Of a stretch of DNA of 64,000 nt, positions 62,015 to 64,000 are shown in pieces. Numbering within the stretch: position 1 is the first letter of the stretch; each line of letters opens with the position of its first letter. The position numbers and the translations under genes were made by a program. Source of the DNA: Guyparkeria hydrothermalis (GTDB lineage Bacteria; Pseudomonadota; Gammaproteobacteria; Halothiobacillales; Halothiobacillaceae); contig NZ_JAJSED010000001.1 of the NCBI RefSeq assembly GCF_023555385.1, positions 2,276,311 through 2,340,310 of the forward strand, in the 5' to 3' direction. The notes under the pieces are model-generated. The model saw only the letters and a list, made by a program, of their open reading frames with translations. It searched no databases and was not told the DNA's origin.

Positions 62015-62043
62015 AAAACCCCGCCTGATGGCGGGGTTTTTTT
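62015..62043. terminator. bidirectional terminator between yqhA and nrsF
   Basis: An 11-bp stem AAAACCCCGCC (62015-62025) with GGCGGGGTTTT (62030-62040), TGAT loop, followed by more T residues. Serves both convergent genes. Confidence 0.93.
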
Positions 62044-62070: not shown

Positions 62071-62715
62071 TCACCAGCGCAGCAGACGCGGACCGAACCA
62101 GGCACCCATGCCGGTCGGGATCAGTATGCCGAGCAGATACCACGTGGCGATGAAGGGAGCGCTCATCTCCGGGCAATGCACCGAATAGACTAGCGCGGCC
62201 AGCGATCCGGCGAACAGTCCGGCCGCGGCACCGGCCAGCCGCAGACGGGTGGGTGCCATGCCTCGCATCGCCCACAGGGAGCTCGCCAGCAGCGGCGCGG
62301 ACAGCAGGGCGATCAGGAAGGCGCAGCTACTCCAGGTCTCGCCCATCAGCAGAGTGGCGCGTTGAGACGGTGCCGCCTGGCTGAGCGAGGCGATGGCCAG
62401 CATCCACAGGAGCAGCACAGGAACGGCAGCGGCGGACGTCGGCAGCCGACCCAGCCGCAGGCCCGGGTGGCCCAGGCGCAACGTCGCCGCCAGTCCCGCC
62501 ACCGCTAGCAGGCCGGCAAAGCCGATCTTGATCCAGAACATCGGCGCCGCGGCGGCCTGGGACAGGTCCGGGCGGATTCCGAGCAGCCCGAGCATCAGGG
62601 CCAAGCTTGCGAGGAGGCCGGTGGCGGTGGCCATGGCCAGCCGGTTCGGTAGCGCGCGACGCGGCACGGCCACCTCGCCGGCGGCGAGTACGGATACGAG
62701 TTGCTCGGTCTTCAT
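62071..62715 (-). CDS. nrsF: NrsF family (DUF1109) anti-sigma factor
   Basis: 214 residues, six membrane helices. The start MKTEQLVSVLAAGEVAVPRR and the GETWSSCAFLIALLSAP block (with Cys) match DUF1109/NrsF. In Caulobacter NrsF holds SigF inactive at the membrane and depends on a conserved Cys pair; here Cys residues occur in helices 4 and 6 (SSCAF and HCPEM). ATGA overlap with the sigma-factor gene shows coexpression. Confidence 0.88.
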   Translation of the reverse strand: MKTEQLVSVLAAGEVAVPRRALPNRLAMATATGLLASLALMLGLLGIRPDLSQAAAAPMFWIKIGFAGLLAVAGLAATLRLGHPGLRLGRLPTSAAAVPVLLLWMLAIASLSQAAPSQRATLLMGETWSSCAFLIALLSAPLLASSLWAMRGMAPTRLRLAGAAAGLFAGSLAALVYSVHCPEMSAPFIATWYLLGILIPTGMGAWFGPRLLRW

Positions 62716-63251
62716 GTGTCCCCCCGAATGAGTCTGGCCAGTGTCTTGAGTCCGCGGTGGACGCCGACCTTGACCGCCGATTCCGACATGCCGGTGCGTT
62801 GTGCGGTTTCCATTACCGACAGACCTTCCAGCTTGGTGTGCCGGATCGACAGTTGCTGGCGTTTTGGCAGCAGGGAGAGCAGGTGCTCGAGATCCCGGCC
62901 CGCCATCTCGTCGTGTTCGGGGGCACGCGGCTCCCGGATGGCCGCCTGATCGAGCGAATCGGTGCGCTGTTCACGCCGTTTCCGTCGACGCAGCAGGTCG
63001 GCGAGCTTGTAGCGGGCGATCGCGTACAGCCAGGCGGTGACCGGCAGGGCCGGATCGTAGGTCTGGCGCTTGTCGTGGATCGCCAGCAGCGATTCCTGCA
63101 CCAGGTCCTCCACCTCGTCCGGCAGGCTGCCCAGTCGGCGGCGGAAATAGCGCCGTAGCAGGTCGCTGGTGGCCTGGAGGAAGGCGTGATAGGCACGGCT
63201 GTCCCCGGACAGTCCGTCCAGCAACCGCCCCCGCAGCTCTTCCTCGCTCAT
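62712..63251 (-). CDS. ECF RNA polymerase sigma factor of the SigF/NrsF type
   Basis: 179 residues. Region 2 (DEVEDLVQESLLAIHDKR, AWLYAIARYKLADLLRR) and region 4 (LEGLSVMETAQRTGMSESAVKVGVHRG) are intact. An in-frame ATG at 63275 lies inside the -10 element of the predicted promoter, so translation must start later; ATG 63251 fits a leader of about 17 bases. Cotranscribed with nrsF; divergent from the cytochrome b gene. Confidence 0.9.
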   Translation of the reverse strand: MSEEELRGRLLDGLSGDSRAYHAFLQATSDLLRRYFRRRLGSLPDEVEDLVQESLLAIHDKRQTYDPALPVTAWLYAIARYKLADLLRRRKRREQRTDSLDQAAIREPRAPEHDEMAGRDLEHLLSLLPKRQQLSIRHTKLEGLSVMETAQRTGMSESAVKVGVHRGLKTLARLIRGDT

Positions 63252-63274
63252 CTCTTGCCCACCATGCCCTGTCA

Positions 63275-63300
63275 TTCGTCCGGACCATGGATGTGGTTAC
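63275..63300 (-). promoter_or_regulatory. ECF-type promoter for the sigma-factor/nrsF operon
   Basis: On the minus strand GTAACC (63295-63300), a 16-base spacer and CGAA (63275-63278). This is the SigF-class pattern GTAACC-N16-CGAA and implies autoregulation. Confidence 0.75.
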
Positions 63301-63355
63301 AGCATTGATTGTAAGCGCGCCGAATGATGGTCGCCCTGCGAATTCGATCGCGGTT

Positions 63356-63381
63356 GTAACCGAGGAGCGTCCCGCGGCGAA
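63356..63381 (+). promoter_or_regulatory. ECF-type promoter for the cytochrome b gene
   Basis: GTAACC (63356-63361), a 16-base spacer and CGAA (63378-63381), identical in both boxes and spacing to the promoter on the opposite strand 60 bases away. Predicted start is about 60 bases before ATG 63447. Confidence 0.75.
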
Positions 63382-63446
63382 TGGATGGATATGCCTATCG
63401 TGATGCAGGTCGGTTGTTCGACCTTCGCCTTTCCAGGAGGCAGTCC

Positions 63447-64000
63447 ATGGATTCGCAGTCCGTCATGACCAGCAGGTTTCGGCGTGGCAGGTCCGGTGAC
63501 GGCATGTCGCCGGTGCACCCCTTGTGGCTGCGACTGACGCATTGGCTCAACGCCCTGGCGGTGGTGCTGATGGTGATGAGCGGTTGGCGGATCTACAACG
63601 CCTCGCCGCTGTTCGACTTTCGCTTTCCCGACGAGATCACGCTTGGCGGCTGGCTCGCCGGTGCGATCCTCTGGCACTTCGCGGCCATGTGGCTGCTGGT
63701 GGCCAACGGCCTGATCTATCTCGCGGTCAACGTCGGTACCGGCCGGCTGTGGTGGCGCTTTTTTCCGCTCTCGCCGCGCGGATTCGTGGCCGATCTGAAG
63801 GCCGCCTTTCACGGTCGGCTCTCGCATGCCGACCCGCGGCACTACAACTCGGTGCAGCGGGCGGCCTACCTGTTCGTGATTCTCGATCTGGTGCTGCTCG
63901 TGGTTTCCGGCCTGGTGCTGTGGAAGTCGGTGCAGTTCCCGCTGCTGCGTGAACTGATGGGCGGCTACGAGGCGGCGCGTTACGTCCACTTCTTCACCAT
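63447..64000 (+). CDS. cytochrome b/b6 domain membrane protein (3' truncated by window)
   Basis: 184 codons from ATG 63447 (AGGAGG seven bases upstream) run open to the window edge. Four hydrophobic helices are visible, with candidate haem His in MSPVHPLWLRLTHWLN (24, 32), ILWHFAAMW (77) and RYVHFF (181). This is the di-haem cytochrome b561/hydrogenase cytochrome b family that feeds electrons to periplasmic oxidoreductases, frequently a molybdopterin enzyme encoded next. Partner not visible here. Confidence 0.85.
   Translation, partial: MDSQSVMTSRFRRGRSGDGMSPVHPLWLRLTHWLNALAVVLMVMSGWRIYNASPLFDFRFPDEITLGGWLAGAILWHFAAMWLLVANGLIYLAVNVGTGRLWWRFFPLSPRGFVADLKAAFHGRLSHADPRHYNSVQRAAYLFVILDLVLLVVSGLVLWKSVQFPLLRELMGGYEAARYVHFFT

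Follow-up and report, generated by a model that had tools for sequence, protein, structure and literature searches.

Genes and features around the sigF/cytb gap

The window (i.e., the whole stretch of 64,000 nucleotides that was analyzed, from a genome of one contig of 2,392,942 bases) carries two divergent gene groups near its right-hand end. The first consists of sigF and nrsF, which overlap by 4 bases; the second is cytb-yedY-mrpX, the target operon discussed below, and the window end falls within its first gene (Table 1). The first-pass annotation had described the upstream operon as encoding an ECF sigma factor with NrsF and the downstream open reading frame (ORF) as a cytochrome b gene; profile matches to Sigma70_r2, Sigma70_r4_2, and PF06532, and to PF01292, respectively, bear out both assignments.

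Table 1. Coordinates of the genes and predicted promoters of the two divergent operons (window numbering)
Feature	Position	Strand	Basis
nrsF, NrsF/DUF1109 anti-sigma factor	62071..62715	-	PF06532, 236 bits, full length
sigF, ECF sigma factor, 179 aa	62712..63251	-	Sigma70_r2 and r4_2
SigF-type promoter (predicted) of sigF-nrsF, GTAACC-N16-CGAA(T)	63275-63300	-	Exact pattern; kept in relatives
SigF-type promoter (predicted) of cytb-yedY-mrpX, GTAACC-N16-CGAA(T)	63356-63381	+	Exact pattern; kept in relatives
cytb, b-type cytochrome, likely electron donor	63447..64000, continuing to 64088 outside the window	+	PF01292, 93 bits (whole gene)
yedY, molybdopterin enzyme, YedY/MsrP-like	64102-64851, outside the window	+	PF00174, 107 bits
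mrpX, small Met-rich MxKDx-type peptide	64926-65216, outside the window (L014:8237-8527)	+	TIGR02953, 40.6 bits (cut-off, 41)

Start codons were chosen with the promoters in view. For sigF, the ATG at 63251 was favored because the ATG of the longest frame (63275) sits on the -10 box. The longest cytb frame likewise begins on its own -10 box, and AGGAGG directly precedes the ATG at 63447, which was therefore preferred. A comparable clash between promoter and annotated start has been noted for ecfF of Bradyrhizobium (PMC3420878). With these starts, the gap measures 195 bases, as first reported.

NrsF also matched NF042994 (164 bits, under its equivalog cut-off of 300). It contains exactly two cysteines, Cys131 and Cys181, and the cysteines studied in Caulobacter NrsF are also numbered 131 and 181 (PMC3511200). 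Six membrane spans have been reported for the NrsF family (PMC8315932). Judged by sigma regions 2 and 4, the adjacent NrsF, the NrsF cysteine pair, and the promoter pattern, the SigF/NrsF pair is predicted to be of the ECF16 type. An inverted repeat followed by a T run at 62019-62043, between nrsF and a convergent UPF0114 gene, was seen by eye and is probably a shared terminator.

The top profile for YedY was MsrP, at 69 bits (below the equivalog cut-off of 207), with SorA at 55 bits; SorA/SoxC and sulfite oxidase structures were also matched, more weakly. Its best match among solved structures was 1xdq, which we take to be Escherichia coli YedY (deposited as a bacterial sulfite oxidase). The alignment places ICVEGWS of YedY opposite RCVEAWS of 1xdq; the Cys in this stretch is presumably the molybdenum-binding Cys of YedY and would therefore be retained. 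The Tat signal scored 21.5 bits with TAT_signal, just under the cut-off of 22.7. MsrQ, the membrane subunit of E. coli MsrPQ, is ferric reductase-like; no subunit of this type was found at the locus, where cytb matched PF01292 and, below cut-off, DUF4405 only.

MrpX consists of approximately 18% Met, most often spaced by five residues, with the lysine of the repeat often replaced and a signal peptide recognizable by eye. Because its score falls just under the NCBIfam cut-off, the gene may go unannotated in this genome. The gene 3' of mrpX on the opposite strand is presumably groEL.

Two SigF-type boxes in the gap

The claim that GTAACC-N16-CGAA occurs on both strands of the gap with equal spacing held: the 64,000-nt window contains these two exact matches and no third, and 100 dinucleotide shuffles of the window produced none. 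A chance pair had been called unlikely, in agreement with the expectation of 0.00018 ten-base matches in 195 bases (expected counts here and below were computed from the base composition of the window). Over the whole genome, the exact 10-base pattern was observed 4 times, 2 of them in the gap (approximately 2.2 expected). When a spacer of 15 to 17 was allowed, there were 13 matches, 4 of which had a spacer of 16, and the reversed control gave 7. The longer form GTAACC-N16-CGAAT was found exactly twice in the genome, both times in the gap (0.39 expected; 1 in the reversed control).

This pattern had been equated with that of Caulobacter SigF, itself paired with NrsF, and both the published pattern (PMC3511200) and the PF06532 match at this locus agree with that identification. 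A divergent pair of the same boxes is known from Brucella melitensis, where the offset from start to start is 64 bases, versus 81 here.

Conservation within the order

Of the 27 genomes of the order, 14 encode NrsF, and these same 14 also encode YedY relatives with E values of <1e-100. Of the 13 genomes lacking NrsF, four are 64 to 85% complete; two (G004 and G010) encode only one distant YedY relative each (32% identity). Such an overlap would arise by chance once in 20 million if the genomes were independent, which related genomes are not.

Loci were counted once per genome (n = 14); the genomes represented by L112, L113, and L114 each have a further piece (L048, L053, and L054), which was not counted again. 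Divergent N16 boxes with at most one mismatch each were present in 11 of the 14. Two others (L050 and L112) have an exact sigF-side box together with an operon-side box that has an N15 spacer and CGTA, and at L113 a contig end truncates the locus, with the operon-side box present. In all counts of pairs, including those at the named loci below, we disregarded the weaker of two pairs in L151 (8392/8453) and, in L049, an alternative box that overlaps the one counted. The mrpX gene lies 3' of yedY at all 14 loci.

One of these loci shows an insertion: in genome G012, which is a single contig, a Tn3-family transposon (L112:4589-13685) splits sigF and carries genes for MerT, MerR, and a MerA-like reductase, as identified by Pfam. 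The neighboring genes persist despite the split: nrsF is present, as is cytb-yedY-mrpX, preceded by the N15 box.

Co-occurrence of the operon-side box with SigF

A scan with the YedY alignment of the order returned at least 594 relatives, of which the best 80 (the named loci) were compared; all counts for named loci refer to these best 80. They come mostly from Betaproteobacteria and Pseudomonas, with some from Enterobacterales and other groups. SigF was found at 18 of them, 17 with NrsF and one truncated by a contig end. An exact operon-side box preceded cytb at 17 of the 18 loci with SigF and at 0 of the 59 without it (Fisher test, 4e-16 with relatedness ignored). Here, "without SigF" means none within the flanks examined, 6 kb at most. 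Boxes were counted up to approximately 1.2 kb upstream of cytb because some loci carry an extra gene before it. One-mismatch operon-side boxes occurred at 3 of the 59 loci (L144, L159, and L171). One of the 59, L132, was scored as lacking SigF, its sigma match being on the other strand with no NrsF; among the other 58, 3 had at most 1.3 kb of sequence upstream of cytb. Three loci at which the rule did not find cytb beside yedY were dropped: L148 and L180 (contig starts within yedY), together with L194, which has cytb and neither SigF nor a box. Since the named loci, like the genomes of the order, are related to one another, none of these counts are independent.

The divergent pair was present at 15 of the 18 SigF loci. 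At L192, the sigF-side box has two mismatches; at L198, sigF-nrsF is relocated downstream and the box before cytb is retained; at L178, the eighteenth SigF locus, the exact box precedes msrA, followed by a DUF1223 gene and cytb. By a downstream-of-yedY rule, mrpX follows yedY at 75 of the 80 loci; the box table gives 73, omitting the three dropped loci and including L190, where MrpX is encoded upstream.

Further variation in gene content was noted. An ORF containing SEGCSSCPP lies between the box and cytb in some betaproteobacterial SigF gene runs (L139, L143, L156, L178, and L201); it is DUF1223 in the three cases tested (L143, L178, and L201), and the other two appear alike by eye. OmpR-type response regulators stand beside cytb-yedY-mrpX in place of SigF-NrsF at L172, L202, and L205, with a histidine kinase at L172 and L205. 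In Pseudomonas (L146 and L168), a methyltransferase gene lies upstream of the module, and Bordetella genomosp. 2 (L129) carries two cytb-yedY-mrpX copies approximately 4.8 kb apart.

In a sample of 370 genomes of the class, NrsF matches were found in 18, and 14 of these scored above cut-off, including the window's own and that of one congener. Scanning the remaining 12 NrsF loci with the window's proteins yielded no cytb, yedY, or mrpX match. SigF/NrsF is thus not always tied to the methionine module and must have different partners at these loci. Boxes do occur at four of the 12, which belong to other families of the class: an exact N16 box at L062, L064, and L065 and a divergent pair with one mismatch in each box at L060.

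Size of the SigF regulon

The first-pass annotation had presented the cytochrome b gene as the first target of an ECF sigma regulon and had raised the question of whether further copies of the pattern precede redox or methionine-sulfoxide genes. It does not look like the first of many targets: both exact GTAACC-N16-CGAAT sites of the genome lie in the gap, and a comparable N16 box is missing from msrA and from the DUF692 gene over the stretches examined. Around msrA (L209; 3.4 kb examined), no box with fewer than two mismatches was found. Around the DUF692 gene (L210; 3.8 kb examined), there was no N16 box with at most one mismatch; a single N17 match with one mismatch falls within the region of the gene, on the other strand, and is unlike a SigF promoter.

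When one mismatch was tolerated in GTAACC-N16-CGAAT, the genome contained 16 sites, 14 of them beyond the gap pair (reversed control, 9). All 14 overlap an ORF of at least 120 aa, which alone is weak evidence because the DNA has 66% GC and both gap sites overlap spurious ORFs too; for 10 of them, the overlapped ORF has a Pfam domain above cut-off, leaving 4 (L120, L121, L122, and L123). A wide regulon was thus looked for and not found, and msrA and the DUF692 gene lack a convincing box. On the simplest reading, the regulon looks like two operons, with the box pair accounting for most or all of it. Additional, more diverged SigF promoters may exist in the genome. SigF would thus have an apparently minimal regulon of two promoters and two operons with one job.

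Proposed function of the locus and alternatives

It had been proposed that SigF autoregulates and switches on the cytochrome b operon. This prediction is supported by the conservation of both boxes at loci with SigF beside the operon and by the finding that loci with no SigF in the flanks examined have no exact operon-side box. The associated suggestion of redox or metal stress can be narrowed: since the operon runs on into yedY and mrpX, hypochlorite or another methionine oxidant is a more likely signal than metal. The operon probably serves methionine-sulfoxide repair. We consider it highly probable that divergent SigF promoters drive sigF-nrsF and cytb-yedY-mrpX as an oxidant-responsive methionine recycling system.

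The model rests on what is described above: the sequences of the promoters, the order and families of the genes, their conservation, and their co-occurrence; the signal, release mechanism, reduction of methionine sulfoxide, and electron path we infer from homologues. At rest, SigF would be held by the membrane anti-sigma factor NrsF. An oxidant such as hypochlorite, probably acting via Cys131 and Cys181 of NrsF, would release SigF, and the free sigma factor would transcribe both sigF-nrsF, which encodes it, and the divergent cytb-yedY-mrpX. Exported MrpX would then offer many methionines to be oxidized in place of those of other envelope proteins, and exported YedY would reduce the resulting methionine sulfoxide again, with electrons passing from the quinone pool via the membrane cytochrome b to YedY.

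Defenses of this type against bleach or other oxidants have already been described in other bacteria, and the present locus would be a new example. In the B. melitensis BcrS/AbcS-BcrXQP system, the sigma and target operons likewise diverge, and two GTAACC-N16-CGAA boxes are present (PMC8315932). The bcrS operon is reported to be HOCl inducible and autoregulated (5'-RACE), and BcrS/AbcS controls the adjacent bcrXQP, encoding a Met-rich peptide and MsrQP homologues (PMC8315932). It differs in gene order (X-Q-P there versus cytb-yedY-mrpX here) and in that the BcrS regulon is reported to extend to other genes (PMC8315932). The hypochlorite system of Azospira suillum combines an ECF sigma factor, NrsF, YedY1, the membrane partner YedZ1, and MrpX (PMC5748585, PMC4623255), a likeness drawn by kind of component from secondary accounts. 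Bradyrhizobium EcfF/OsrA is of the ECF16 type, is autoregulated, and has methionine sulfoxide reductase genes in its regulon and two conserved anti-sigma cysteines at positions 129 and 179; unlike the present system, it has the consensus GTAAC(g,a)-N14-15-(t,c)CG(t,a) and a wider regulon (PMC3420878). The c3566-c3568 operon of uropathogenic E. coli (UPEC) likewise encodes a cytochrome B, an MsrP-like protein, and a Met-rich peptide, but it is controlled by the two-component system C3564/C3565 instead of an ECF sigma factor (PMC8550376); this fits the response regulators seen beside the module at three named loci (L172, L202, and L205). Taken with the relatives under SigF or two-component control, with or without msrA and DUF1223 genes, these cases suggest a stable repair module with exchangeable control.

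The same sigma factor and promoters might instead govern a metal-stress module. In that case, binding of Cu, Ag, Cd, or Cr would fall to the acidic, Met-rich peptide, with the cytochrome and molybdoenzyme in a secondary role. Caulobacter SigF shares the promoter pattern, Cys131/Cys181 of NrsF, and a YedY gene in its regulon with the present system, yet the signals tested for it were Cr and Cd, and its further targets are DUF2282, DUF692, and DUF2063 operons (PMC3511200). Its response to chromate and cadmium is reported to be independent of oxidative stress, and its sigF was judged not strongly autoregulated (PMC3511200). Promoter fusions for RpoE7, an ECF16 sigma factor of Sinorhizobium meliloti, are reported to show no response to H2O2, Cd, or chromate (PMC6180224). 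The Caulobacter and S. meliloti findings speak against a simple oxidant model. The MrpX peptides of the window's genus are rich in Met, Asp, and Glu; however, mature MrpX of the window genome contains no Cys and only 3 His, no N16 box within one mismatch was found in the 3.8 kb examined around the DUF692 gene, and mrpX follows a methionine-sulfoxide-type reductase gene at 75 of the 80 named loci (the best 80 of at least 594). The tested homologues, moreover, protect against HOCl (PMC8315932) or peroxides (PMC8550376). We regard a metal-stress module as improbable.

Less probable still is that the oxidoreductase placed under SigF is a respiratory enzyme, for instance a sulfite dehydrogenase, beside which the repeat peptide is incidental. 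Membership in the PF00174 family and the weaker matches to SorA/SoxC and sulfite oxidase structures would suit such an enzyme, but the best profile is MsrP and the best structure is 1xdq. The position of mrpX after yedY (14 of 14 loci of the order and 75 of the 80 named loci, again the best 80 of at least 594) and the msrA gene in the SigF gene run of L178 also argue against it. A chance origin of the boxes, with transcription of the genes from promoters elsewhere, is scarcely credible and was rejected on the basis of the shuffles, the genome-wide uniqueness of the CGAAT form, and the expected counts: ten specified bases are expected about twice per genome by composition, but only 0.00018 times in the gap. 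Relatives, moreover, keep the position and strand of the boxes even though the sequence of the spacer varies, and 0 of the 59 loci without SigF (from the best 80 of at least 594) have an exact operon-side box.

An acidic form of MrpX in the window's genus

Under the preferred reading of oxidant-responsive methionine recycling, one feature sets the genus of the window apart. At its seven loci (L014, the window genome, and L049, L051, L052, L055, L058, and L059), the net charge of MrpX after residue 22 is -20 to -29, versus -2 to +7 elsewhere, values that are approximate because starts were picked by a crude rule. Lys and Arg together make up 2 to 8% of the peptide in the genus, versus 15 to 35% at the 82 other loci with MrpX (7 of the order and 75 named, the latter from the best 80 of at least 594). 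Met content is 17 to 19% in the genus and 14 to 26% at those 82 loci. The last 200 residues of YedY in the genus have charges of -1 to +4 and are not acidic; the charge of MrpX is therefore not explained by the module as a whole having become more acidic. Among the papers listed in a literature search, none pointed to the acidic form in its title or abstract opening.

These sequences hint, tentatively and with considerable doubt on our part, that in this genus an acidic M-x-x-(D/E)-(D/E) type of repeat has taken the place of the lysine-rich MxKDx repeat, with the Met content and the commonest spacing of five preserved. If the acidic form is functional, the recycling enzyme would need the spacing of Met and not positive charge, and the acidic residues may help to bind cations or be of use in a periplasm with much salt; the genus would then offer a natural test of which peptide features matter. 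A Met spacing of 5 is the commonest in the two MrpX peptides of the genus that were listed, but the spacing is less strict there: the median share of Met spacings equal to 5 is 0.60 in the genus, 0.65 at the other loci of the order, and 0.91 at the named loci (the best 80 of at least 594).
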